From the NCBI RefSeq assembly GCF_024178165.1, contig NZ_JAMZIE010000001.1, forward strand, positions 124,001 through 188,000: DNA of 64,000 nucleotides, in the 5' to 3' direction. Made by a program: the position numbers and the translations under genes. The stretch comes from Halohasta salina. Its GTDB lineage: Archaea > Halobacteriota > Halobacteria > Halobacteriales > Haloferacaceae. The notes beneath the pieces are model-generated. The model saw only the letters and a program-made list of their open reading frames with translations, made no database searches and was not told the origin of the DNA. Below, piece after piece: positions 17,566 to 52,305 of this stretch (the stretch's first letter is position 1; each line of letters opens with the position of its first letter).

Positions 17566-17907
17566 ACGGCGTGGTGCAGTCGTCTGGGCCATAGCGGATA
17601 ATGGGTTGTTGATCACTGACCGAGACTCGTACGTGCTGACTTAGAGTCCACTCTATTCGACCTCCATCAACAATTAATCTGTCTCAGAGGGTAGCAGACG
17701 CGATTCTCTGACGCTCGTTCACTTCTCCGCGCAAATGTATGGATAGAAAGCTGGCCTCGGCACTCATAGGGCTCGTCACCGACAGGAGCCACCCCGTCTC
17801 GGAGCGGTGCGTTCGTCATCGGCCAGTCGACCCAACGCCCAACACCCAAAAGACGGTTTCCATCGGGTCGACTGACTCTTTTTAAGTAGTCCCTCTATAA
17901 CAAAACC
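17566..17907. other. Intergenic region without a recognised gene
   Basis: 342 bases between the CapA gene and the thioesterase gene. I see no credible short gene or known RNA. The only identifiable signal is the TATA-like box near its right end. Confidence 0.6.
17880..17888 (+). promoter_or_regulatory. TATA-like box of the thioesterase gene
   Basis: TTTTAAGTA about 25 bases before the ATG at 17908, consistent with leaderless transcription. Confidence 0.55.
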
Positions 17908-36907: not shown

Positions 36908-39900
36908 ATGGCGGCCGTACCGGACCCCACGGCTCGACTCGTGGTTGCGGTCTGTCTCTTCGTAGCCGGGACCGCCGGCGTGGCCGTGGTCGACGATGCG
37001 GTGGGGGTGGTCTCGGCGCAGAATGGCGAGGAGGTCGACGAAGTAAATATTATCAGTATCGATCCGAATCGGTCAAGCCCCGGTGAAGATATAGTAATTA
37101 GCGTAGAATTTCTCAATGATAGCGAACCTGTCGAAGGTGTAGAGGAAGATGCTACGATTTATAGAGATAGTGAGGAAGTTCAAAGAATAAGTGGTACAAG
37201 CGACAACACAGGAGTAGCTACATACAATTATACTCCAACTGGAGATGATGTTGGTAGTACTACAGAGGTATATGTGATATCTGGCGGAAATGCTGTTGAC
37301 AAAGAGTTCTATGTTGAATTCAGTATAGAGAACATTCACAATGGGACAATTGAACCCGACCCTGTCGACCCCGGCAACGAGACCAACATTTCAGCACGTG
37401 GTTTCAATGAAATCGACGAGCCGTTTGTTGGCAATTCTGAAGTCATATTCGAGATAAATAACGGAAATGGGAATCTAACTGAAACAACTGTAACCAGTAA
37501 CGACGACGGTTGGGTCAACACCACCTATGAGGCGGTCGACACCGACGCTGGCCGAACAGTCACAGTCGACATTACCGCCAACGAGACCGACGCCAACACG
37601 ACGATCCCGATCAACGTCACCGCCAACACCGCCGGCTTCGACAACGTCACCGCGGAGCCACAGGACCCCACAGCCGACGGGAACGTCAGTTTCACCGCGC
37701 GAGTCCTTGACGAAGCCAACAACCCGCTCAACGACACGACCGTCGACTTCGGGACCAACGGAACCGGCGGGTTCATCCGCGAGAACGCCACAAGCAACGC
37801 GACGGGGTACGTGAACACGACCTACGTCCCCGACCGGGCGGACAACGATTCGGCGGTCAGACTGACACTTGCGCCCGGAACCAACGCCGAGACGAACGAA
37901 ACGGTCACGTTCGCGCCGCTGTCGATCGTCGACTTCGCCGACGAATCGGCCAGCCCTGAGACGGTCGACCCCGGCGAGAACACCACCGTGACCGCGGAGG
38001 CCCGCGACGAGTTCAACGCGTCGCTGGCGAACCGGACGGTCGACATCAACGCCGCCGGTGCGGGCAACCTGAGCACCACACAGGTCGACACCGACAGCGA
38101 GGGGAACATCACCGTCAACTATGAAGCCGCGCCCGGCGATGCGGGCAGCGACGTGGAGATCACCATCGCGGCCAACGAGACCAACGCCGAGACGAACGTG
38201 ACCGTCGCGGTCGGCGCCAACGCCGACGCGATCCGAAACGTCTCGGCCGACTCGCCGACCCCCGACCCCGGAGAGGCGGTGAACGTCACCGCCGAGGTCT
38301 TCGACGAGGCCGGGAATCTACTGGACAACGCGAGCGTGACGTTTAACGCCACCATCGACGGCGACGTCGACGCCGGGGAGTTCAGTTCCGAGAACGCAAC
38401 CAGCGGCGGAAACGGCGTGGTCAACACGACGTTCACGCCGAACGGCTCGGCGGCCAACCGGACGGTGACGATCAACGTGAGCGCCGACGGCACGGACGTG
38501 TTCAACACGACCACGCTGAACGTGACCGCCAACGCCGACCGTATCGACGCGTCGGTCGACCCCTCGGAGATCGACCCCGGCAACGAGACGACCGTCAGCG
38601 CGCAAGTGTTCGACGAGTCCGGCAGCCCGCTGCCGGAGGCGAACATCAGCATCGAGGCCAGCGGCGGCGAGGGAGAACTCAACGAAACGAATCTGAACAC
38701 GACCGACGAGGGATGGGCCAACACGAGCTACACGGCCGCCGGCGACGACGCGGGAACCGACGTGCAGATCGACGTGACGGCCGACGATGCCGACGCGGCG
38801 GCGAACGCGACCGTCACCGTCACCGCCAATCCCGATCGGTTCACCAACGAAACCGTCGACCCCGAGCGGCCCGAACCGAACGAGTCGACCAACGTGTCCG
38901 TCCGGGTCCGCGATGAGTCGGGCTCGCTGTTGAACGGGACCGGGATCGAACTCAACGTCACCACCGGAAACAACAGTCTCGAAGCCGTGCCGACCGAGAG
39001 CGACAACCGCGGCTGGATCAACGCCACCTACACGCCGACCGGCGACGACGCCGACACCGAGGTCGCCATCGAGGTGACCGCCAACGAGACCAGCGCCAAC
39101 CGGACGATCACGTTCAACGTCTCGGGGCGCGCCGCCGCCGAGTTCAACCAAACGGTCGCCGACCCGCCGGAGGTCGACCCGCTCAACACTACCAACCGAA
39201 ACAACAAAACGACCGTCGGCGTGCTGGTGTTCGATCAGGTCGGCGACCGGCTCAACGGCTCGGAGATCGACTTCGAGGTGACCAACGGGACGGGCAGTCT
39301 CAACACGAGTTCGACAAACAGCAGTGACGGCTGGGCGAACGTGACCTACACGGCCAACCGTAGCGACGCCGGCTCGACGGTCGACATCGAGGCCAACGCC
39401 ACCGGCCGGAACGTCACCGAGACGATTGAGGTCGACGTCACCGCCAATGCTGACGAGATCACGGCTCTCAGGGCGACCCCCGGCGACGAGCCCAACGAGA
39501 CGGTGTCGATCAACGCGACCGTCCGCGACGAAAACAGCACCGAGCTCGATGGGGCGATAATAAACATCACCACCAACGGATCCGGAACCATCGAGGATGG
39601 AAACGTCACGAGCGAAAACGGCCTCGTCAATACGACCTACACGCCGGATCGAGACGACGCCAACCGGACGCTGAACGTGACGTTTGCCGCCGTCAATACG
39701 AGTGTCGAAAACGAGACGACCGTCGACATCCCGCCGCTGGCAGCGGCAAAAATCAACGAGACGAGCCTGTCGGTCACCGAAGTCGACCCCGGCAACACCA
39801 CCGAGATCAACGCGACGGTCCGGGACCAGTTCGGCCAGTCGCTCAACGGGTCGGACGTAACGTTCACTAGCACATACAACGGGACGTTCTCGGGGATGCA

Positions 39901-42900
39901 AAACACGAGCGACGCCGACGGGCTCGTCAACGCCACCTACACCGCCGACGATTCGGACGCCGGCCGGACCGACACCATCTACATCAACGCCAGCGCCGAC
40001 GATCGGAACGCCTCGGCCAGCGTCGACGTCGAGGTGACCGCGAACCCCACCAACTTCACCGATCGGACGGTCGACCCCGAGGAACCCGAACCAAACGAGT
40101 CGACGACGGTGGCCCTCCGGGTCCGCGACGAGTCCGGCAGTCCCCTTCCGGATGCAGGCGTCGAGTTCTCCACCACCGGCGACGGCGACCTCAATCGGAC
40201 CGGCTTCAACGCCACCAACGCCGGCTGGGTCAACGTCTCCTACACCCCCAACGGCTCGGACGCCAACGACTCGGTCGACATCGAGGTGACCGCCAACACG
40301 ACCGATGCCAACGAAACGGTCACGTTCAACGTCTCCGAACTCGCCGCCGCGGAGTTCAACCAGACGGTCGCCGACCCACCCGAAGTCGACCCGATCAACG
40401 CGACCTATCGCGACAACGAGACAACCGTCGGCGTGCAGGTGCTCGATCAGGTCGGCGAGACGCTCAACGACACCGAGATCGAGTTCATCGTGACTGCCGG
40501 CGCGGGCGACCTCAACACGAGTTCGATCAACAGTAGCAGCGATGGGTGGGCGAACGTGACCTACAGCGCCACCCGCAGCGCCACCAACTCGACGGTCGAC
40601 ATCGAGGCCAACGCGACCGGCCGGAACGTCACCGAGACGATCCAAGTCGAGGTTACTGCCAATGCGGACGAAATCACCAAGCTGAACGCGGTTCCCGGTG
40701 ACGAACCCAACGAGACGGTCGGGATCAACGCGACCGTCCTCGACGAGGACGGGAACGAACTCAACGCGTCGACGGTGAACGTCACCGCGCTCAACGGCTC
40801 CGGAACCGTCACGAACACGACCGTCACGAGCAACGCCGACGGCCTGATCGAAACCGAGTACACCCCGAACCGAAGCAACGCCAGCGAAACCATTGGACTG
40901 GAATTCAACGCGACCGACACCAACACCACGAACACGACGACCTTCGAGATCCCGCTGCTGGCCGCAACCACGATCAACGAGACGAGTCTCTCGGTCGCGG
41001 ATGTCGACCCCGGCAACACGACCGAAATCAACGCGACCGTCCGGGATCAGTTCGGCCAGCCGCTCGACGGATCGACGGTGAACTTCACCAGCACCCGCAA
41101 CGGGACGTTCAACCGCGACCAGAACACGAGCGTCGACGGCGGGCTCGTCAACGTCACCTACACGGCGGTCGATGCGGACGCCAACACGACCGACACCGTC
41201 TACATCAACGCCAGTGCCGACGATCGGGACGCCTTTGCCGTCGTCGAGATCAACGTGACGGCCAACCCAACCAATATCACCGACGCGACGGCGACGAACT
41301 TGGCCCCCGAACCAAACGAGTCGACGACGATCACGGCAACCGTCCGCGACGAGTCGAACGACCCGCTGCCGGAGGCCAACGTCAGCTTCGAGACCAACGG
41401 CAGCACCGACTTCGAGGCGGTTTCGAACACGACCGACGGGGCGGGAAGCGTCAGCGCGGACTACACCCCGGCAAGCAACGATTCCGACACGACGGTCGAC
41501 CTCGGGATCGTCGCCGAAGCCAATCGGAGCGTACTGGCGAACGTGACCCTCGATGTCGGCCCGCTGGCGGCCAGCGGGTTCGCAAACGGGACCGCCGAGC
41601 CGAGCGAGATCGACCCCGTCGACACCGGCGATCGGCGCAACGAGACCAACGTCTCGGTGCAGGTGCTCGACCAGTTCGGCGACCCGCTCAACGAGTCGGA
41701 CGTGAGTTTCAGCGACGACGGCGAGGGCAACGTCACGGCCAGCGGGGACACGAGCAACGCCACCGGCTGGGTGACCACGAACTACACGGCCGCCCGCGGG
41801 GACGCCAATTCGACGGTGAACGTCACGGTCAACGCCACCGACCGCGAGGTCGAGACGAACGTCTCAATCACCGTGAGCCAGAACCCCGACCGCTTCGAGG
41901 GGGCCACCGCAACCCCCGACCCGGTCGACCCCGGCAACACGACGACGATCAGCGCCGAGGTCGTCGACGAGTCGAACACCTCGATCGCCGACGAAGCGGT
42001 CGAATTCAACGTGACCGCCGGTAACGGGACGTTCATCGGCGGCGGGACCACGACGACAAACACCAGCAACGAAACGGGATTCGTCGAGGCGGTCTACGAA
42101 CCGAACCGGACCGATGCCGACACGAACGTCACGATCGGGCTCAACGCGACCGCAACCAACACCACCACGAACGTGACCGTCGAGATCGGGTCGCTGCTGC
42201 CCGAGCGGATCACCAACGGAACGGCCAGCCCCACACGGATCGACCCCGTCGACACCGGCGACCGGGCCAACGTGACCAACCTCTCGGCGCAGATCCTCGA
42301 CCAGTTCGACGAGCCGCTGCCCGGCGCGAACGTGACGTTCAGCGACGACGGCGATGGGAATCTCACGGTCAACCGGTCGACGAGCAACGAGACGGGGTGG
42401 GTCAACGCGACGTATGCGGCCAACCGCAGCGATGCCGGCACGAACGTCACGGTCGACATCGAGGCCAACACGACCAACTCCACGGGCCAGAACGCGACGG
42501 CGAGCATCGAGATCAACGTCACCGCCAACCCCGACCGCTTTGAGGCGATCAACGCCACCCCGCCGGCGGACCCCTCGGATCCGATCGAGATCAACGCGAC
42601 GGTCCTCGACGAGTCCGGAGACGAATACGACGGAGCGACGATCGACTTCACCCGCGTTGTGGGGAACGGAACGTTCGACGGAAGCATAGAGACGAGCGAC
42701 GAGAGCGACACCGACGGCTTCGTGACGGCCGACTACGAGCCGAACCGGACCGACGCCAACCGGACCGTCGAGGTCGAACTCAACGCGACCGCAACAGAGC
42801 TGACACGGACAGTCACGATCGACGTCAGCGCGCTGTCGCCGGCCGGCTTCGACAACGAAACCGTCACACTCGAGGCTGTCGACCCCGGCAACGAGACGAC

Positions 42901-45900
42901 GCTCTCGGCGCGGGTGCTCGACGAGTTCAACGAGACGTTCGTCGGCAACGAAACCGGCGGCGACGCAGCGGGCGCGGACGTGACCTTCGGGACCGACGGC
43001 AACGGCACGCTCTCGCCGCCGACGAACACGAGCAACGAGACGGGGTGGGTGACCACGACCTATGAGGCCGCCGACGCCGACGCCGGCATCGAGATTGTGG
43101 CCAACATCACGGCCAACGCGACCGGCGTCGAGACCGAAATCCCGTTCAACGTGACGGCCAACCCGACGACCTTCACCAACCGGACGGTCGACCCCGAGCC
43201 GCCCGAGCCCAACGAGTCGACGACGGTCGCCCTCCGGGTCCGCGACGAGTCCGAGGACCCACTCGGCGACGTCGGCGTCGCATTCAACGTCAGCGACGGC
43301 GAGGGCGATCTCAACCGGACCGGGTTCAACGCCACCGACGCGGGCTGGGCCAACGTTTCCTACACCCCGAGCGGCGAGGACGCCAACAAGTCGGTGACGA
43401 TCAATGTGACCGCCAACGCGACCACCGCCAACGAGACGGTCACGTTCGACGTCAGCGAGCGCGCCGCCGAAGAGTTCAACCGAACCGTTGCCGATCCCGC
43501 CGAGGTCGACCCTCTCAACACCACCTACCGCGACAACGAGACGACCGTCGGCGTGCTGGTACTCGATCAGGTCGGCGACCGACTCAACGACTCCGAGATC
43601 GAGTTTACCGTGACAAACGGCACGGGCGATCTCAACACGAGTTCGACAAACAGTAGTGACGACGGCTGGGCGAACGTGACCTACACGGCCAACAGCAGCG
43701 ACGCCGGCTCGACGGTCGAAATCGAGGCCGACGCCGTCAACCGGAGTGTCAATGCGACGATTGAGGTGAACGTCACTGCTAACGCCGACCGGATCACCGA
43801 TCTGAACGCCAATCCCGGTGGCGAACCCAACGAGACGGTCGAAATCAACGCAACCGTGCTCGACGAATCCGGGGACGAACTCGACGGGGCGATCATAAAC
43901 ATCACCGCGCTCAACGGGTCGACCAACGTCACCGACGGGACTGTCAGGAGCGACGACGGACTCATCGAGACGACCTACGAGCCGGTCTACGACGACGCCA
44001 ACCGGACCATCGAACTACAGTTCAACGCGACCGACACCACCGCCACGAACACGACCACCTTCGATGTCCCGCCGCTGGCGGCGACCAAAATCAACGAGAC
44101 GAACCTCACGGTTACGGAAGTCGACCCCGGCAACACGACACAGGTCAACGCGACGGTCCGCGACCAGTTCGGCCAGCCGCTCAACGAGTCGGACGTAACG
44201 TTCACCAGCCAGCGCAGCGGGACCTTCTCGGCGGTCCAGAACACGAGCGACGACGACGGCCTCGTCAACGCCACCTACACGGCTGCCGACGTTGACGCCA
44301 ACACCACCGACACGATCTACATCAACGCGACCGGCCGCGAAGCGTTCGCCACCGTCGCGGTCGAAGTGACTGCCAACCCGGCGAACTTCACCGAGCCGAC
44401 GATCATCCCCGAGCAGCCCGAGCCTAACGAGTCGACCAATATCGCCCTCCAAGTGCTCGACGAGTCCGACGACCCGCTGCCGGACGCCGGCGTCGAACTC
44501 ACGAGGGGCTCGGCCAACGGCACGCTCAACGACACCGGCCTCACCAGCACCGACGACGGCTGGCTTAACACCACCTTCACGCCGAACGGGTCGGACGCCG
44601 ACACCGAGGTCCGGCTCAACGTGACCGCAAACGAGACCGACGCCAACACGACGGTCGCGTTCAACGTCAGTGAACGCGCCGCCGAGTCGTTCGTCGACGT
44701 TTCGGCAGCCTCACCCGAGATCGATCCCGTCGACGACGAGAACCGAACCAACACGACGAACATCAGCGCTCGCGTGCTTGATCAGGTCGGCGACCGACTG
44801 GAGGGGGCGAACGTCACGTTCTCGACGGACTCCGAGAACGGCACGCTGACCGACGTCGAAAACGAGAGCGACGAGAACGGCTGGGTCAACGCGACCTACG
44901 TGGCCAACCGCAGCGACGCCAACACAACGGTGACGGTTACCATCGACGCCACCGACCGCAGCGCCGAGACGAACGTCTCGATCACCGTCACTGCCAACGC
45001 CGACCGGATCTCCGACCTGAACGCAGTCCCCGACGAGCAGCCGAACGAGACGGTCGACATCAACGCGACCGTCCTCGACGAATCGGGGACCGAACTCGAC
45101 GGGGCGGAAATAACCATCACCGCACTCAACGGATCTGGGAATGTCACGAACGCGACCGTCGAAAGCGACGGTGATGGCCTCGTCGAAACCAAGTACGATC
45201 CGGTCCGCGAGGACGCCAACGAGACCATCGAACTGGCATTCAACGCGACCAACACCACCGCCACGAACACGACCACCTTCGACGTGCCGCCGCTGGCGGC
45301 GACGACGATCAACGAGACGACTCTCACGGTCGGCGCGGTCGACCCCGGCAACACGACCGAAATCAACGCGACGGTCTACGACCAGTTCGACCAGCCGCTC
45401 AACGGGTCGACAGTAAACTTCTCCAGCACTCGCAACGCGACGTTCTCGGGAGTCCAGAACACGAGCGTCGACGGTGGCCTCGTCAACGCCACCTACACTG
45501 CCAACGATTCGGACGCCAACACGACCGACACCATCTACATCAACGCGACTGACCGCGAGGTGGTCGCCACCGTCGACGTCGAAGTGACGGCCAACCCGGC
45601 GAACTTCACTGAGGCGACGATCACTCCCGAGGTTCCCGAGCCCAACGAGTCGACCGATATCGCCCTGCAGGTCCTCGACGAGTCCGATACCCCACTCGGA
45701 AACGCCAGCGTCGCACTCACGAAGGCCTCGGCCAACGGGACGCTCGACGATACCGGCCTTACCAGCACCGACGACGGCTGGCTCAACACCTCCTACACCC
45801 CGAACGGCTCGGATGCCGACACCGAAGTTCGGATTGACGTCACCGCCAACGAGACTGACGCCAACAGGACGGTCGCGTTCACCGTCGGTGAGCGGGCCGC

Positions 45901-48900
45901 AGACACAATCAACGCCTCGGCGGCCCCCGAGGCGATCGACCCCGTAAACACCGGCAACCGGACCAACACGACGAACATCAGCGCCCGCGTGTTCGATCAG
46001 GTCGGCGAGCCACTACAGGGGGCGAACGTCAGCTTCACCACCGACTCCGAGAATGGCACGCTGACCGACGTCGACGACGAGAGCGACTCCGACGGCTGGG
46101 TCAACGCCACCTTCCAAGCGGCCCGTAGTGACACCAACGAGACCGTCATGGTCACCATCAACGCCACCGACCGGAGCGTCGAGGCGACTCAGAACGTCAC
46201 TGTCACTGCCAACGCCGACGCGATCGTGAACGCGACCGCCGACCCGGCGACGGTCGACGCCGGCACGCGGTCGATCATCAACGCCACCGTTCTCGACGAA
46301 GACGCGAACGAACTTGAGGGTGCAAACGTGACCTTCGACTCCGACGGCAACACGTCGGTCGACCCGATCGTGAACACGAGTCTCGCCAACGGGACGGTCA
46401 AGGCCGCGTACACGCCCGACGACGAGGATGCCAACGGGACCGTCACCATCACGATCGAGGCCAACCGAACCGGCGCGAACGCGACCGCAACCCTCTCGGT
46501 CAACCGCTTGGATGCCGACACGATCCGCGACGCGAGCGGCGAGCCGTCGACGGTCGCTCCCGGTAACACGTCGACGATCACCGCAACGGTCTACGACTCG
46601 CTGGACCAGACGATCGAAGGCGAGAACGTCAGCTTCAGCGATGACGGCAATGGAACCGTCGAGTCGATTGCCAACACCAGTGGAGACAACGGCACGGTCG
46701 AAGCCAGATACACGGCCACGAGGGACGACGCCGGCGGAAACGTCACGATTGACATTAACGCCACCGAAACCGGCGCGAACACGACCGTCGAGGTCGCGGT
46801 CGACGAGTTGGCCATCGAATCGTTCGGCAACCGGTCGACGGACTCTGATGAGATCGATCCGCTCAACAGCGTCGGCACGCTGGATAACGAAACGAATCTC
46901 AGTGCTCGCGTGTTCGATCAGGTCGGTGAGCCACTGGATGATGCGAACGTCACGTTCAACGTCACACAGGGCAACGGCACACTTGGTAATGAGACCGTAA
47001 CGAGCGATGATGGGTGGATCAACACGACCTACCGAGCCGACCGAAATGATGCTAACACGACCGTCGTAGTGTCGCTCAACGCGACCGGCAGCGACGCCGA
47101 GACGAACCTGACAGTCAATGTAACGGCTAACCCGTATGATCTTAAGGGTATAAACGGAATCCCCGACGAGGCAGATCCGGGAGACGAGATCAATATCTCG
47201 CTGACTGTTGTTGATGAGGCAGACAATCCATATTCAGGACAAGATGTCGAATTCGGAAATTTTGAAGATTCAACTGTTTATCCGGGTGAAGACACTAGTG
47301 GAACAGATGGGAATATATCAACAAAAATTAGTATAGTCCCGGAAGATATAGATACTGGCGTCAGGTTCATTATTGACCCTGCTACTGAAGATATAGACTC
47401 AGTCGTGAAATTGATTGAGGTTACTGAAAATGCCGACAATATTACGAATATAAACGTCATCCCAACACCCGTCGACCCCAACGAGACAGCGACCATCTCT
47501 GCGACGGTACTGAACGAAAACAACACGAAAATGACTGGTGCAAACATCTCGTTCGAACCATACGGCGAAGGAAACGTCACCCCGTCAACAGACAATAGCA
47601 GCGACGGGAACGTCTCAACGACCTACGACCCGGCCCGTGCCGACGCCGACAGCAATGTGACGGTCACGATCAACGCGACCGACACCGACGCCGAACGGAA
47701 CGCGACCGTTCAGGTCGACGATCTCAAACCGGTGGCGATCGCCGACGCGGGTACGACGCCGGCGCGGGTCGAGCCGAACGAGACGGCAACGATCAACGCG
47801 ACTGTCGAGGATCAGTTCGGCGAACCGCTCCCCGGAGAGGCAGTCACTTTCGAGACGAACGCGACGGGCACGCTGACGGTCGACAACGCCACGAGCGGCT
47901 CCAACGGCACGGTCGACGCGACGTTCCGGCCGACCGCCGCCGAAAACGCGACGATCACGATTGCTGCCAATCGGACCAACGCGTCGACGAACACGACGCT
48001 ACGGGTGTTGGATCTCGAACCGACGACGTTCACCGACGTCGATGCAACGCCCGCCGAGATCACCGCAGGTAACCGAACGAACCTGAGTGCGCGAGTGCGC
48101 GATCAGCTCGGCGATCCGTTCGACGGCGGTACTGTGAGCGTCGACACCGACTGGAACGGCACGCTCGGCAACGACACTGTGACGAGCGACGACGGTTGGG
48201 TCAACACGACCTACAGGGCCAATGAGTCGGACGTCAACCGAACGGTCACCGTGACCTTCGAGGCGGACAACGGGACTGCCAATACATCAGTCGGGTTCTT
48301 CGTCCGGCCGACGCCGCAGGGCTTCGAGAACGTCAGCGTCGACCCGCCGGAGATCCAGCCCAACGAGACGGCGCGGGTCAGCGCTGACGTGGTCGACGAG
48401 CGCAACGAATCGCTGGACGGTGTGGACGTCACGTTCCGAACCGACGGGAACGGGACGGTCGCCCCATCGACCAACACCAGCCAGTCGGGAGCAGTGTCGA
48501 CGACCTACGAGCCGGCCCGAGAGGACGCCGACAGCAACGTGACGGTGACGGTGATCGCCAACGAAACCGGCGTTGAGACGAACGCGACGGTGCAGGTATC
48601 GAAGCTTCTGCCGACGCGCTTCGACAACGGGACTGCCGCGCCCGGCGAGATCGTCGCGGGCAACCAAACGAACCTGAGCGCGCAGGTCCGCGACCAACTC
48701 GACGAGCCGTTGCCGGGCCGGAACGTGACCGTCGAGACCGACGGAAACGGCACGCTCGGCGCGACAAACGTGACCAGCGGGGACGACGGCCTCGTCAACA
48801 CGACCTATAGGGCCAACGAGTCGGACGTCCGCCAAACCGTCGGCGTGACCTTCGAATCGGTCAACGGCAGCGCCAACACGACGGTCGAGTTCGACGTTCG

Positions 48901-50521
48901 GCCGACACCACAGGGGTTCGAAAACGTGACGACCACGCCGTCGACGATCGGGCCTAATGAGACAACAACGGTCAGCGCCGATGTGGTCGACGAGCACAAC
49001 GAGTCGCTGGCCGATACCGAGGTGCGCTTCGAGAGCGGAAACGGCACATTGACGCCGTCGACCGACACCAGCGACGCGACCGGTTCCGTTGCGGCGAGTT
49101 ACGGACCGGCGCGAGTCGACGCTGATAGCAACGTGACGATCACGGCCGTCGCTACCGAGACCGGCATCGAAGCGAACACGACCGTCGAGGTGACTGCACT
49201 CGAACCGGTTGCGATCACCGACGTTGGCCTCGATCCGAACTCGATTGATCCGGGCGACAACGTGACTGTCTCGGCGACGGTCCGCGATCAGGTCGACGTC
49301 GGCTTCGAGGGGGCCACCGTCGAGTTCAGCCACGGCGGCAACGGAACGCTCTCGGCAGCAAACGATACCAGCGACGCCAGTGGTGGGGTCACGACGGTCT
49401 ACCAGTCGACCGAGGCGGATGCCGACTCCACGGTCGGCCTCGAACTTGCAGTTCCTGACGGTCCACATCGAAACGTGTCGCTCCCGGTCGGCTCGCTCCC
49501 ACAACCGGAGCCCGATAGCAGTGGCTCTAGTGACTCGACGACACGGATCATTGTCGACGGGGGCGACGACTCGGACGACGTCAACGAAGACGAGCCGGTC
49601 GACGTCCGCGAGACGGCTACGTCGATCGTCGTCGAGAACCCCCCAAGTGGCGAGCCAGTCGACCTCAACAAGGAGACGACCGGGCTGTCGTCGCTCTCGC
49701 GGACCGAGAACCTCTCGCTGGAGTCGGTGTCGATGACCGTCGACGAGTCGGCATCCTACCGGCTTGATTCGGCCAGCTACGAGTACGGCCGGATCCGGAC
49801 CACGAGGGATGGGGAGACCGAGACGGACACCCGGTCCGAGACGGTCGCCGACTTCGAGCGGTCGACCCAGCGGCTCCCGATCGGCTACCTCGAAGTGGAC
49901 GCGACCGCTGCCGACGAGTCGCTGTCGCAGGTCGACTTCGAATTCCGGGTGGCCAAATCCTACCTCGACAACCGGGCGACCGAATCCGACGAACTCGCCC
50001 TCTACCGACGCAACGAGTCGGGGTGGAACGCCCTCGAAACCCGCCAGCTCAGGGACAACGAGACCCACTACTGGTTCGAAAGCGAGTCGCCGGGGCTGTC
50101 GGTGTTCCCGATCGGCTCCGACCGGCGGCCCGTCGAGATCACCGAGCGGTCGGTGACCGCTGAGAAGGTCGCCCCCGGCGATGCTGTCGGCGCGACCGTC
50201 ACCCTCGACAACGAGGGGTTGCTGGATAACACGACGACCCTCCGGCTCACCGCCAACGGGCAGGTCGTCGACACCCGGTCGGTGACGGTGCCGGCCGGGG
50301 AGTCGGTGACGACCGACCTCGCATTCACCCCCGAGACCGAAGGCGAGTACGAGCTCGCGGTCGGCGGCTCGACGGTCGGTACAGTGACCGTCGAGGCCGG
50401 GCCGGGCGTCGGCGTCATCGAACCGCTCGGGACGTCATTCCCCGGCGTCGACAGCGGCTGGCTGTGGGCGGCTATCGTCGGTGCCGTCCTCCTGATTACC
50501 GCGGCGGTTCGGCGGTGGTAG
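36908..50521 (+). CDS. Giant surface protein of 4,537 residues with about 41 invasin-like Ig repeats and a C-terminal membrane anchor
   Basis: A secreted adhesin- or mucin-like protein. A signal peptide (LVVAVCLFVAGTAGVAVV) is followed by about 41 repeats of 85-105 residues that look like bacterial Ig-like (Big_1/invasin) domains. Each runs roughly PxxVDPGNxTxIxAxVxDExG, L..A.V.F, G.G.L, TSxxDGWVNxTYT, DA...V.I.VTAN. They are extremely rich in Asn-X-Ser/Thr sequons, so heavy N-glycosylation is likely. The only cysteine I see is in the signal peptide. After the last repeat (about base 49,500) come an Asp-rich linker, a PGF-pre-PGF-type domain (RLPIGYLEVDATAADESLSQ, THYWFESESPGLSVFPIG), a CARDB-like domain (VTAEKVAPGDAVGATVTL) and a final helix ending AAVRRW, without a PGF motif. 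The start at 36908 has GAGGTG 7 bases upstream. Four-domain cassettes repeat at ~1,215 bp. Two AT-rich stretches (37,040-37,500 and 47,130-47,460) stand out. Adhesion or cell-coat roles are inferred. Confidence 0.88.
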   Translation: MAAVPDPTARLVVAVCLFVAGTAGVAVVDDAVGVVSAQNGEEVDEVNIISIDPNRSSPGEDIVISVEFLNDSEPVEGVEEDATIYRDSEEVQRISGTSDNTGVATYNYTPTGDDVGSTTEVYVISGGNAVDKEFYVEFSIENIHNGTIEPDPVDPGNETNISARGFNEIDEPFVGNSEVIFEINNGNGNLTETTVTSNDDGWVNTTYEAVDTDAGRTVTVDITANETDANTTIPINVTANTAGFDNVTAEPQDPTADGNVSFTARVLDEANNPLNDTTVDFGTNGTGGFIRENATSNATGYVNTTYVPDRADNDSAVRLTLAPGTNAETNETVTFAPLSIVDFADESASPETVDPGENTTVTAEARDEFNASLANRTVDINAAGAGNLSTTQVDTDSEGNITVNYEAAPGDAGSDVEITIAANETNAETNVTVAVGANADAIRNVSADSPTPDPGEAVNVTAEVFDEAGNLLDNASVTFNATIDGDVDAGEFSSENATSGGNGVVNTTFTPNGSAANRTVTINVSADGTDVFNTTTLNVTANADRIDASVDPSEIDPGNETTVSAQVFDESGSPLPEANISIEASGGEGELNETNLNTTDEGWANTSYTAAGDDAGTDVQIDVTADDADAAANATVTVTANPDRFTNETVDPERPEPNESTNVSVRVRDESGSLLNGTGIELNVTTGNNSLEAVPTESDNRGWINATYTPTGDDADTEVAIEVTANETSANRTITFNVSGRAAAEFNQTVADPPEVDPLNTTNRNNKTTVGVLVFDQVGDRLNGSEIDFEVTNGTGSLNTSSTNSSDGWANVTYTANRSDAGSTVDIEANATGRNVTETIEVDVTANADEITALRATPGDEPNETVSINATVRDENSTELDGAIINITTNGSGTIEDGNVTSENGLVNTTYTPDRDDANRTLNVTFAAVNTSVENETTVDIPPLAAAKINETSLSVTEVDPGNTTEINATVRDQFGQSLNGSDVTFTSTYNGTFSGMQNTSDADGLVNATYTADDSDAGRTDTIYINASADDRNASASVDVEVTANPTNFTDRTVDPEEPEPNESTTVALRVRDESGSPLPDAGVEFSTTGDGDLNRTGFNATNAGWVNVSYTPNGSDANDSVDIEVTANTTDANETVTFNVSELAAAEFNQTVADPPEVDPINATYRDNETTVGVQVLDQVGETLNDTEIEFIVTAGAGDLNTSSINSSSDGWANVTYSATRSATNSTVDIEANATGRNVTETIQVEVTANADEITKLNAVPGDEPNETVGINATVLDEDGNELNASTVNVTALNGSGTVTNTTVTSNADGLIETEYTPNRSNASETIGLEFNATDTNTTNTTTFEIPLLAATTINETSLSVADVDPGNTTEINATVRDQFGQPLDGSTVNFTSTRNGTFNRDQNTSVDGGLVNVTYTAVDADANTTDTVYINASADDRDAFAVVEINVTANPTNITDATATNLAPEPNESTTITATVRDESNDPLPEANVSFETNGSTDFEAVSNTTDGAGSVSADYTPASNDSDTTVDLGIVAEANRSVLANVTLDVGPLAASGFANGTAEPSEIDPVDTGDRRNETNVSVQVLDQFGDPLNESDVSFSDDGEGNVTASGDTSNATGWVTTNYTAARGDANSTVNVTVNATDREVETNVSITVSQNPDRFEGATATPDPVDPGNTTTISAEVVDESNTSIADEAVEFNVTAGNGTFIGGGTTTTNTSNETGFVEAVYEPNRTDADTNVTIGLNATATNTTTNVTVEIGSLLPERITNGTASPTRIDPVDTGDRANVTNLSAQILDQFDEPLPGANVTFSDDGDGNLTVNRSTSNETGWVNATYAANRSDAGTNVTVDIEANTTNSTGQNATASIEINVTANPDRFEAINATPPADPSDPIEINATVLDESGDEYDGATIDFTRVVGNGTFDGSIETSDESDTDGFVTADYEPNRTDANRTVEVELNATATELTRTVTIDVSALSPAGFDNETVTLEAVDPGNETTLSARVLDEFNETFVGNETGGDAAGADVTFGTDGNGTLSPPTNTSNETGWVTTTYEAADADAGIEIVANITANATGVETEIPFNVTANPTTFTNRTVDPEPPEPNESTTVALRVRDESEDPLGDVGVAFNVSDGEGDLNRTGFNATDAGWANVSYTPSGEDANKSVTINVTANATTANETVTFDVSERAAEEFNRTVADPAEVDPLNTTYRDNETTVGVLVLDQVGDRLNDSEIEFTVTNGTGDLNTSSTNSSDDGWANVTYTANSSDAGSTVEIEADAVNRSVNATIEVNVTANADRITDLNANPGGEPNETVEINATVLDESGDELDGAIINITALNGSTNVTDGTVRSDDGLIETTYEPVYDDANRTIELQFNATDTTATNTTTFDVPPLAATKINETNLTVTEVDPGNTTQVNATVRDQFGQPLNESDVTFTSQRSGTFSAVQNTSDDDGLVNATYTAADVDANTTDTIYINATGREAFATVAVEVTANPANFTEPTIIPEQPEPNESTNIALQVLDESDDPLPDAGVELTRGSANGTLNDTGLTSTDDGWLNTTFTPNGSDADTEVRLNVTANETDANTTVAFNVSERAAESFVDVSAASPEIDPVDDENRTNTTNISARVLDQVGDRLEGANVTFSTDSENGTLTDVENESDENGWVNATYVANRSDANTTVTVTIDATDRSAETNVSITVTANADRISDLNAVPDEQPNETVDINATVLDESGTELDGAEITITALNGSGNVTNATVESDGDGLVETKYDPVREDANETIELAFNATNTTATNTTTFDVPPLAATTINETTLTVGAVDPGNTTEINATVYDQFDQPLNGSTVNFSSTRNATFSGVQNTSVDGGLVNATYTANDSDANTTDTIYINATDREVVATVDVEVTANPANFTEATITPEVPEPNESTDIALQVLDESDTPLGNASVALTKASANGTLDDTGLTSTDDGWLNTSYTPNGSDADTEVRIDVTANETDANRTVAFTVGERAADTINASAAPEAIDPVNTGNRTNTTNISARVFDQVGEPLQGANVSFTTDSENGTLTDVDDESDSDGWVNATFQAARSDTNETVMVTINATDRSVEATQNVTVTANADAIVNATADPATVDAGTRSIINATVLDEDANELEGANVTFDSDGNTSVDPIVNTSLANGTVKAAYTPDDEDANGTVTITIEANRTGANATATLSVNRLDADTIRDASGEPSTVAPGNTSTITATVYDSLDQTIEGENVSFSDDGNGTVESIANTSGDNGTVEARYTATRDDAGGNVTIDINATETGANTTVEVAVDELAIESFGNRSTDSDEIDPLNSVGTLDNETNLSARVFDQVGEPLDDANVTFNVTQGNGTLGNETVTSDDGWINTTYRADRNDANTTVVVSLNATGSDAETNLTVNVTANPYDLKGINGIPDEADPGDEINISLTVVDEADNPYSGQDVEFGNFEDSTVYPGEDTSGTDGNISTKISIVPEDIDTGVRFIIDPATEDIDSVVKLIEVTENADNITNINVIPTPVDPNETATISATVLNENNTKMTGANISFEPYGEGNVTPSTDNSSDGNVSTTYDPARADADSNVTVTINATDTDAERNATVQVDDLKPVAIADAGTTPARVEPNETATINATVEDQFGEPLPGEAVTFETNATGTLTVDNATSGSNGTVDATFRPTAAENATITIAANRTNASTNTTLRVLDLEPTTFTDVDATPAEITAGNRTNLSARVRDQLGDPFDGGTVSVDTDWNGTLGNDTVTSDDGWVNTTYRANESDVNRTVTVTFEADNGTANTSVGFFVRPTPQGFENVSVDPPEIQPNETARVSADVVDERNESLDGVDVTFRTDGNGTVAPSTNTSQSGAVSTTYEPAREDADSNVTVTVIANETGVETNATVQVSKLLPTRFDNGTAAPGEIVAGNQTNLSAQVRDQLDEPLPGRNVTVETDGNGTLGATNVTSGDDGLVNTTYRANESDVRQTVGVTFESVNGSANTTVEFDVRPTPQGFENVTTTPSTIGPNETTTVSADVVDEHNESLADTEVRFESGNGTLTPSTDTSDATGSVAASYGPARVDADSNVTITAVATETGIEANTTVEVTALEPVAITDVGLDPNSIDPGDNVTVSATVRDQVDVGFEGATVEFSHGGNGTLSAANDTSDASGGVTTVYQSTEADADSTVGLELAVPDGPHRNVSLPVGSLPQPEPDSSGSSDSTTRIIVDGGDDSDDVNEDEPVDVRETATSIVVENPPSGEPVDLNKETTGLSSLSRTENLSLESVSMTVDESASYRLDSASYEYGRIRTTRDGETETDTRSETVADFERSTQRLPIGYLEVDATAADESLSQVDFEFRVAKSYLDNRATESDELALYRRNESGWNALETRQLRDNETHYWFESESPGLSVFPIGSDRRPVEITERSVTAEKVAPGDAVGATVTLDNEGLLDNTTTLRLTANGQVVDTRSVTVPAGESVTTDLAFTPETEGEYELAVGGSTVGTVTVEAGPGVGVIEPLGTSFPGVDSGWLWAAIVGAVLLITAAVRRW
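38834..40048 (+). repeat. Four-domain cassette 1 of the giant surface-protein gene
   Basis: Encodes four successive Ig-like domains with distinct opening signatures: PEPNEST, then VDPLN..NKTTVGV, then DEPNETVSINATV, then VDPGNTTEINATVRDQFGQ. The length is 1,215 bp (405 residues), and cassette 2 follows directly. Confidence 0.8.
40049..41269 (+). repeat. Four-domain cassette 2 of the giant surface-protein gene
   Basis: Same order of the four domain types as cassette 1, 1,221 bp. A further PEPNEST-type domain starts right after it (41270), but the series is then broken by differently ordered domains up to 43165. Confidence 0.8.
43166..44380 (+). repeat. Four-domain cassette 3 of the giant surface-protein gene
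   Basis: PEPNEST, VDPLN..DNETTVGV, GEPNETVEINATV and VDPGNTTQVNATVRDQFGQ domains in the same order, 1,215 bp, as in cassettes 1 and 2. Confidence 0.8.
44381..45598 (+). repeat. Four-domain cassette 4 of the giant surface-protein gene
   Basis: Same order, 1,218 bp; the second domain is the VDPVDDENR..NTTNIS variant. Another PEPNEST domain follows at 45599, after which the order changes again. Confidence 0.8.
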
Positions 50522-50777: not shown

Positions 50778-50849
50778 TGGACTCGCTGGGATTTGAACCC
50801 AGGGCCTCTTCCTTGCGAAGGAAGCGATCTACCGCTGATCTACGAGCCC
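50778..50849 (-). tRNA. tRNA-Ala (anticodon CGC)
   Basis: Read on the minus strand, it folds as a full cloverleaf. The acceptor stem is GGGCTCG/CGAGTCC (one G-U pair) and the D arm is GATC/GATC. The anticodon stem is CTTCC/GGAAG with loop TTCGCAA (anticodon CGC), and the T arm CTGGG/CCCAG has loop TTCAAAT. The discriminator base is A. CCA is not encoded and there is no intron. Confidence 0.95.
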
Positions 50850-50895: not shown

Positions 50896-51465
50896 TTACG
50901 TGTCCAACAACCCGACCGCGCCTGCCAGCAACCCGAGCAACAGCCCGGTGAAGTGGGCCACCAGCGCGACGCCCGGTCGACCAGTCGCTATTGTAACCAC
51001 CAGCGCCGCCAGCGCGAACAGCGCGAACTGCGCCCGCGGCGGAAGCCGGATGCGATCCAGCAGCGTCGACGCCACGACGTTCCCCGCCAGCAGGTAGCCG
51101 ATCAGGCCGAATACCGCCCCGCTCGCGCCGAGGACTGCCGTGCCGGGCCCGAGCAGGCCCGTAGAGACCACCTGTGTGATCCCCGCGAGCGCGCCCACCG
51201 TGAGGAAAAACAGGTGGAACCGCCAGCGCGTCGTCCGGCGTTCGACCAGCAGCCCGGCCAGCAGCAGCGCGAGGCTGTTCGACAGCAGATGGGGGATCGA
51301 CCCGTGGGCATACACGCTCGTCACGATCGTCCACGGGTCGGCGGTGATCGGCGGCGCGAGCACGAACAGCCCGAGGAGGCCGACGAGACTGGCGACGCCT
51401 TGGAGCGCGAAGACGACCACGAAGAGCAGGAGGGTTTCCACCGTCGGGCTTCGTGCGGAGGCCAT
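50896..51465 (-). CDS. Rhomboid-family intramembrane serine protease
   Basis: 189 residues, the compact six-helix rhomboid form. HGSIPHLLSNSLALLLAG carries the oxyanion-region histidine and asparagine. GASGAVFGLIGYLLAG has the GxSG catalytic serine (near residue 114) and VAHFTGLLLGLLAG the catalytic histidine near the C-terminus. It cleaves membrane-protein substrates within the bilayer; the substrate is unknown. A palindromic TATA-like word at 51484-51494 lies 19-29 bases upstream. Confidence 0.92.
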   Translation of the reverse strand: MASARSPTVETLLLFVVVFALQGVASLVGLLGLFVLAPPITADPWTIVTSVYAHGSIPHLLSNSLALLLAGLLVERRTTRWRFHLFFLTVGALAGITQVVSTGLLGPGTAVLGASGAVFGLIGYLLAGNVVASTLLDRIRLPPRAQFALFALAALVVTIATGRPGVALVAHFTGLLLGLLAGAVGLLDT

Positions 51466-51494: not shown

Positions 51495-51545
51495 CAATAT
51501 TATGGTTTCGAGGGTGGTGCGTTGTGCGGCTCCTCGAACGTGAAC

Positions 51546-51665
51546 AACCAGAAAGCCCCGACTGGCTCCAGTCGAGGGCCTCGCTGCGCTCCTCAGCCGC
51601 TACGCGGCTTCCGGTGCTTACTTCGGCCGTCTTCCCGGAGCCAGTCGCCCCTTTCAGTCCCACCC
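51546..51665 (+). repeat. Structured 120-bp repeat, left copy
   Basis: Opens AACCAGAAAGCCCC and closes GCCCCTTTCAGTCCCACCC. Inside are an outer stem CGACTGGCTCC (51559-51569) / GGAGCCAGTCG (51637-51647) and an inner hairpin AGCCGC-TAC-GCGGCT. The right copy is the same element inverted, with different but still complementary stem sequences. The overlapping open frames look like non-coding by-products of the high GC. Confidence 0.8.
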
Positions 51666-51689
51666 ACAGCCGGTGGATCAGCCGCCATC

Positions 51690-51809
51690 GGGTGGGACTG
51701 AAAGGGGCCGCTCTCTCGACGAACCCCGGCGACGTAAGCACTGGAGGCCGCGAAGCGGCCGAAGCGCGCAACGAGCCGCGGGAGTCGAGAGAGCGGGGGC
51801 TTTCTGGTT
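51690..51809 (-). repeat. Structured 120-bp repeat, right (inverted) copy
   Basis: On the minus strand it opens AACCAGAAAGCCCC and closes GGCCCCTTTCAGTCCCACCC, with outer stem CGCTCTCTCGAC (51709-51720) / GTCGAGAGAGCG (51784-51795) and inner hairpin GGCCGC-TTC-GCGGCC. It is exactly as long as the left copy, with a 24-bp spacer (51666-51689) between them. Confidence 0.8.
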
Positions 51810-51996
51810 CTTTGCAGTCGACACGCTCACTGCCTCAATACTGGATTGACCCTCTCCAGTCGACACGTATTCGTCGTACACACCAGCAGCTCACCGGGAT
51901 AAAACAAATGAAAAGTCTAGAGGCGCGGGACGCCTTAGCGCCGCGGTGGGTTCGGTCGCAGGTCGACGAACGAGCCGCGACCGCTCGGTGCGGAGA

Positions 51997-52305
51997 TCAG
52001 TCTTCGAGGACGATCTCGATGCTCACGTCGTTCGGCACCTGGACACGCATGAGCTGGCGGAGCGCGCGTTCGTCGGCATCCAGATCGATGAGCCGTTTGT
52101 GGACGCGCATCTCCCAGTGCTCCCACGTCGCGGTCCCTTCGCCGTCAGGGGATTTCCGCGAGGGGACTTCCAGCGTCTTGGTCGGCAGCGGAATCGGCCC
52201 GCTGAGCGTGACCCCGGTCTTCTCGGCGATCTCTCGAACGTCGTCGCAGATGTTGTCGAGGTCCTCGGGGTGGGTACCAGCGAGGCGGACGCGTGCTTGC
52301 TGCAT
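51997..52305 (-). CDS. rps10: Small ribosomal subunit protein uS10
   Basis: 102 residues, the normal archaeal S10. [21 protein letters not shown] opens it, [22 protein letters not shown] is the loop region and [20 protein letters not shown] the C-terminal core. Its ATG directly follows the tuf stop (TAAATG), so the two genes are co-transcribed, with tuf first. Confidence 0.97.

Follow-up and report, generated by a model that had tools for sequence, protein, structure and literature searches.

What is the pair of inverted, hairpin-forming copies that lies between two host genes in the window (the whole stretch of 64,000 nucleotides analysed here), and why have its stem bases changed together? 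A preliminary description proposed that a folded form, of RNA or single-stranded DNA, is selected, and offered a structured RNA family, a transposon-like element moved by an outside transposase, or a paired regulatory device as alternatives. This interpretation is partly supported. The first two alternatives are not exclusive, as the evidence describes a mobile element that carries a structured module. The results below give good support to two statements: the element is mobile, non-autonomous and specific to haloarchaea, and the hairpin inside it is under constraint to fold on one of its strands.

Anatomy of the pair

The pair is intergenic, between a rhomboid-like gene (50896-51465, minus strand) and a uS10-type ORF (51997-52305, minus strand), both named by reading their translations, and no plausible gene was found inside it. 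It consists of 120-bp copies at 51546-51665 and at 51690-51809, in opposite orientations on either side of a 24-bp spacer. This matches the first description base for base, and the ends quoted for both copies are exact as well. The stems were also read correctly: the outer stem is GACTGGCTCC/GGAGCCAGTC in one copy and CGCTCTCTCGAC/GTCGAGAGAGCG in the other, and the inner hairpin is AGCCGC/GCGGCT in one and GGCCGC/GCGGCC in the other. The features, with each module read head-first, are:

51513-51530, plus strand: probable eroded left terminal inverted repeat, GGTGGTGCGTTGTGCGGC, by resemblance only
51546-51665, minus strand: hairpin module copy A, with its head GGGTGGGACTGAAAGGGGC at 51665-51647 and its tail GGGGCTTTCTGGTT at 51559-51546
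51551-51555, minus strand: CTTTC as read on that strand, the tail side of helix 1 in copy A, pairing with GAAAG at 51655-51651
51560-51569, minus strand: outer stem of copy A, pairing with 51637-51646
51666-51689, no strand: 24-bp spacer between the two heads
51690-51809, plus strand: hairpin module copy B, with its head at 51690-51708 and its tail at 51796-51809
51700-51704, plus strand: GAAAG, the head side of helix 1 in copy B, pairing with CTTTC at 51800-51804
51709-51720, plus strand: outer stem of copy B, CGCTCTCTCGAC, pairing with GTCGAGAGAGCG at 51784-51795
51834-51844, minus strand: CTCAATACTGG as read on the plus strand, probably the right terminal inverted repeat in eroded form; a weak assignment, by position and partial match

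Copies A and B align without gaps over 120 columns, and their differences are concentrated in the paired stems. Read from the head, the order of the unit is GGGTGGGACT, GAAAG, GGGC, the outer stem, an inner stem with a conserved internal loop and a terminal hairpin, the returning stem, GGGG, CTTTC and TGGTT. The preliminary description needs amending in one respect, the extent of the element: the 120-bp copies stand, and the whole element is larger, with the pair lying inside terminal-repeat remnants at about 51513 and about 51844. The left remnant can be compared with GGTGGTGTTTAGGTGGC, found at an equal distance from the tail in a copy from the same genus (G002:C1:659381). No target duplication is recognisable on the flanks of the window pair.

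Several other features of the window were recorded. Downstream of the pair, at 51822-51870, are short repeats (GCAGTCGACACG / CCAGTCGACACG) that G002 and G003, from the same genus, also have, differently spaced. One ORF (36908-50521, plus strand), 4537 aa long, consists of many repeated units rich in Asn, Thr and Asp and is predicted to be a giant surface protein, with N-terminal signal-like and C-terminal membrane anchor-like segments. Rfam matches in the window are to the C/D box RNA sR-tMet and a tRNA, at 17753-17824 and 50778-50849 (both minus strand).

A family found throughout the haloarchaea

We built a covariance model, R1, from a 40-sequence alignment (A1) drawn from 102 diverse copies of the module. 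It describes a haloarchaea-wide family of about 114 nt, with matches in 123 of the 145 haloarchaeal genomes sampled and in 50 of 58 genera; R1 E-values are rough, being based on a short calibration. The window copies score 130.6 bits (copy A; G000:C11:175551-175664, window 51551-51664) and 131.6 bits (copy B; G000:C11:175691-175804, window 51691-51804), both being members of the training set. The resemblance of the two copies is thus not due to chance, and the further haloarchaeal copies for which a search had been suggested are plentiful. Many genomes have at least 25 R1 copies, and three congeneric genomes have 94, 58 and 39, so that the maximum is at least 94. The window's own genome has two further copies, more divergent than the window pair. 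Because module copies are mutually related, some of the counts in this study are not independent.

R1 had no match in 101 genomes from other classes of the phylum, and an exact-match search with the head among GTDB species genomes returned at least 120 loci, nearly all haloarchaeal among the matches listed. Phage records and viral contigs held no module copies. In Rfam 15, searched at gathering and at permissive thresholds, no family reached its gathering score, and the weak matches to miRNA models were at chance level.

Other genomes also have modules paired head to head across a short spacer like that of the window pair; single modules are common too and have the same ends as the pairs. By crude gene calls based on a simple composition rule, 230 of 239 copies lie outside genes. 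The four orientation classes of the neighbouring genes are equally frequent (32/30/29/26), which indicates that placement is orientation-neutral.

Covariation and the folded strand

The claim that stem bases changed with pairing kept proved real, and the signal is very strong. Using alignment A1 and a structure read by hand, we found changes on both sides at 24 of 34 pairs (261 such cells), and the covariation score was 0.509, compared with 0.150 for shuffled alignments (none of 500 reached 0.509) and at most 0.07 when the structure was slid along the alignment. Covariation extends to helix 1, formed by head and tail with the entire hairpin between them: in a pattern search that left both outer positions free, GA..TC occurred 144 times, CA..TG 92 times (in one genus) and GG..CC 5 times, with 5 exceptions. 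The unpaired bases GGGTGGGACT, GAmGYAAG and GCAGCGA are invariant in all haloarchaeal families. We compared the internal loops by eye with kink-turns and bulge-helix-bulge motifs, and neither fits. The motif ACTGAAAG bears what we take to be a resemblance to CRISPR 5' handles. In many copies (L025, L038, L104, L107 and others) other palindromic repeats (GTTCGAAAG…CTTTCGTGATGACGAGAGAGC…GCTCTCTCGAAC) are nested in the terminal part of the hairpin, stretching it to 150-320 bp and leaving head, tail and outer stem untouched.

Mismatches in the outer stem bear on which strand is constrained. A constraint on the duplex, or on either strand alike, predicts equal numbers of G·T and A·C mismatches, because each is the complement of the other. 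We extracted outer stems by anchoring on head and tail, with no alignment and no RNA scoring. On the head-first strand, G·T outnumbered A·C by 47 to 11 in the first set and by 64 to 14 in a larger set of 162 non-redundant copies (p about 1e-8). Substitutions in the 200-nt flanks of orthologous copies have no strand bias (C/T 501, A/G 516), so the excess does not come from mutation bias. From the G·T excess and the unbiased flanks it follows that the strand that reads GGGTGGGACTGAAAGGGG…GGGGCTTTC is the one constrained to fold single-stranded, in support of the proposal that a folded single-strand form is selected. The module thus has what is generally expected of a structured RNA: covariation above shuffled and slid controls, and tolerance of G·U on one strand with little tolerance of A·C.

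Terminal repeats, target duplications and the link to IS6

The ends of the element resemble those of IS6-family insertion sequences. Ends matching a 16-base IS6-like sequence at 11 or more positions were found in 32 of 139 tail flanks and in none of 139 control stretches, mostly about 23 or about 36 nt beyond the tail. About a quarter of copies therefore keep terminal repeats, and three quarters have no recognisable IS6 end. Among the 28 elements with two ends, 10 are flanked by 8-bp duplications agreeing at 6 or more of the 8 positions, against 0.65 expected from shuffling (maximum 4 in 2000 shuffles), and in several more the duplication matches after a one-base register shift. Elements are about 200-220 bp long with one module and about 330-370 bp with a head-to-head pair; a few owe a greater length to nested insertions.

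Autonomous elements of about 697-701 bp with the same ends (GGCGGTGTTCAGATAAG…CTTATCTGAACACTACC) and 8-bp duplications encode an IS6-family transposase (NF033587, E 6.5e-59). Published IS6 elements make 8-bp duplications and have GG tips, and ISfinder holds two IS6-family MITEs, of 227 and 336 bp (PMC7986276); MITEBth2 and MITEHarch3 have been named as IS6-family MITEs, and it has been argued that the archaeal IS6 members deserve a separate family (PMC6807381). The module-bearing family has the properties of an IS6-family MITE, namely matching ends, the 8-bp duplication and no internal transposase gene, which fits the suggestion of a transposon-like element moved by an outside transposase.

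Two results qualify the link. None of 30 autonomous IS6 loci had a module inside the element, and two had a module only in the flanks of about 1.5 kb. For the IS6 subfamily tested, the expected correlation between the number of its elements and module copy number is absent (rho 0.10, p 0.35), with 11 genomes having at least 12 modules and no IS6 of that subfamily. Since copy number does not track IS6 number, another transposase may act, or the amplification may be old. We also considered whether the two pairs in the window's own genome at G000:C11:335497 and 337014, 1.4 kb apart with tails inward, form a composite transposon, and rejected this, since ordinary host genes lie between them.

Presence, loss and change at fixed sites

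Presence and absence can be followed at a fixed site in the genus g51. Two species have the pair at this site. In six others the intergenic sequence is about 60 bp long and lacks the pair, and in a further five other sequence, of 160-260 bp or more, takes its place. At the window site neither same-genus genome is cleanly empty: G002 keeps heads, tails and spacer, with both hairpins deleted, and G003 keeps one tail. Since both have remnants, the window insertion predates the split between G002 and G003. The hairpins are dispensable at this site.

In three genomes of the genus g14 we identified 25 orthologous copies with both flanks aligned; three of these comparisons share members. Eight of the 25 have kept head and tail unchanged while the whole hairpin between them was exchanged for another, a pattern resembling gene conversion from one copy to another. 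The 17 copies free of such swaps contain 12 double changes in the outer stem, every one from one Watson-Crick pair to another, compared with an expectation of 1.9 if the 40 substitutions were independent (maximum 7 in 5000 permutations). One-sided changes in the same copies comprise 12 to G·U, 3 to A·C and 1 other. The double changes support selection at each site and are not conclusive, because of the shared members and because some double changes could stem from conversion by similar copies.

Other rearrangements were seen at individual loci. At L098, L114, L120, L112, L082, L064 and L042 the head is fused directly to the tail (GGGTGGGACTGAAAGGGGCCGGGGGCTTTC) and the hairpin is missing; these fusions are probably palindrome deletions between flanking GGGGC repeats. 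A second high-copy intergenic repeat, palindromic and about 260 bp long (CCACTTGCGACCGCA…GGCTGGGGAGG…GCGGTTGCGGTCGCAAGTGG), was found at L173:250-520, L186, L193, L201 and L208 in the genus g3 and at the L240 site in the genus g14. Where a module stands alone, this repeat often lies immediately before its head, in what looks like the place of the left module.

A mobile element carrying a folded module

Our preferred reading, to which we assign a probability of about 0.6, is that the window pair represents an old and no longer mobile insertion of a MITE that occurs throughout the haloarchaea, with ends of the IS6-family type and here two head-to-head modules of about 114 nt, that an IS6-type transposase moved it in trans, and that the module acts as a read-through RNA serving the element. 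The ends and duplications suggest that such a transposase would act in trans on the element ends. The hairpin would work as RNA in transcripts reading through from neighbouring genes; no promoter was seen by eye upstream of the heads. With the modules inverted, a transcript from either side would contain one head-first copy, which could fold. Its role would lie in the service of the element: it might bind a host protein, for instance, or limit read-through so that insertions are tolerated. Service to the element rather than regulation of one particular neighbour gene is the most probable role, because neighbour orientation is random and the hairpins have been lost in relatives. A paired regulatory device, as suggested earlier, is hard to reconcile with those observations and with the frequency of single modules.

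On present data we favour RNA over single-stranded DNA by roughly 2 to 1, because the fold has several helices with conserved internal loops and because of the G·U pattern. The strongest competitor, which we judge unlikely, is that the folded strand is DNA: a hairpin of REPIN-like or IS200/IS605-like kind, recognised by an HUH transposase or another hairpin-binding enzyme, with the head-to-head pair as the mobile unit, as it is for REPINs in bacteria. Strand-specific tolerance of G·T would be expected of a functional single-stranded DNA hairpin too, since G·T is the best-tolerated mismatch there as well. The topology and short spacer resemble REPINs (PMC3116915), haloarchaea are rich in the IS605-related palindromic elements called PATEs (PMC3119063), copy number does not follow IS6, and at fixed sites the complete hairpin can be swapped while head and tail stay. 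Against this, terminal inverted repeats and 8-bp duplications occur in the less eroded copies, and both are absent from IS605-type elements and PATEs (PMC3119063). Common single modules carry the same ends as pairs, there is no GTAG or CGTC tag, and an unsystematic look met no linked HUH gene.

Pairing might instead be kept without selection, by template-switch correction of palindromes and gene conversion among the copies of an old MITE. The swaps in 8 of 25 orthologous pairs show that exchange between copies is common, and the hairpin losses at the window site, together with the many head-tail fusions, show that no copy is indispensable. We nevertheless consider this improbable: palindrome correction gives no reason for one strand to show more G·T than A·C (64:14), would not keep the unpaired bases invariant across all haloarchaeal families, and would not make the head and tail bases of helix 1 covary in whole genera. 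Strong covariation and conserved loops are also typical of a functional RNA that stays in place, such as a host non-coding RNA gene or a cis-regulatory RNA of the rhomboid gene or uS10 (a terminator, insulator or leader). To this we give almost no credence, because genomes have anywhere between no copies and 94 or more, congeners differ in whether a site is occupied, neighbour orientation is random and the window site has decayed in sister species; as a fixed gene, a stationary host RNA is largely refuted.

Returning to the reading as a MITE with a read-through RNA, a broader and more tentative version, to which we would give somewhat less than even odds, is that the modules form an undescribed class of structured RNA present in most haloarchaea, which miniature IS6-type transposons spread as their cargo and which reaches roughly a hundred copies in a genome. 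The head-to-head pair would guarantee one folded copy per read-through transcript, and hairpins would be exchanged between sites as cassettes with pairing kept. As a speculation, a G-quadruplex could form in addition from the runs of G in head and tail (GGGNGGG…GGGG…GGGG), a structure favoured by the molar KCl of haloarchaeal cells.

Comparison with known systems

Several known systems resemble the element in part. Like the IS6-family MITEs such as MITEHarch3, it has no transposase gene, IS6-type ends and 8-bp duplications, and its two length classes are close to their 227 and 336 bp (PMC7986276). In the papers searched, these MITEs are not described as having a covarying hairpin module, strand-specific folding or a haloarchaea-wide family, and the comparison with MITEHarch3 is by description only. 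REPINs and the REP/BIME repeats with their RAYT transposases (PMC3116915, PMC3733652) are likewise dispersed intergenic hairpins, often head to head with a short spacer and with pairing kept. REP palindromes, however, are 20-40 bp long, while the module is about 114 nt with several helices and conserved internal loops; it begins with the head GGGTGGGACTGAAAGGGGC in place of a GTAG or CGTC tag, and, unlike in REPINs, terminal repeats and duplications lie outside the hairpins. The PATEs and small mobile repeats (SMRs) of Haloquadratum are also transposase-free, palindromic, high-copy and mobile, and SMR-A is about 110 bp long (PMC3119063). PATEs have neither terminal inverted repeats nor duplications, whereas less eroded copies of our element have both; SMRs make no duplications and target PATE palindromes, a distinction drawn by description only (PMC3119063). 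With Rfam 15 families the module shares a covarying multi-helix fold and conserved unpaired bases, yet none reaches its gathering score. In the papers searched on haloarchaeal MITEs, REPs and structured RNAs we found carriers of known kinds and not the covarying hairpin module, and queries with the conserved motifs returned no haloarchaeal paper.

MITEs are usually regarded as passive DNA, two ends with filler between. In this element the filler is more constrained than the ends, its multi-helix fold being kept across the haloarchaea, through compensatory changes shared by whole genera, and on one strand only. If the fold acts as RNA, a large family would have been missed by Rfam and a minimal transposon would carry a functional RNA; if it acts as single-stranded DNA, an element whose ends are of the DDE type would carry a hairpin-recognition system. 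In both cases, fixed sites that swap entire hairpins offer a measurable instance of concerted evolution in polyploid archaea, and model species exist in which the element can be tested. The preliminary description did not recognise a known family, which holds for Rfam and does not hold for the carrier: the MITE is of a known kind, that of the IS6-family MITEs (PMC7986276, PMC6807381), and it is the conserved strand-specific fold within it that appears to be undescribed.
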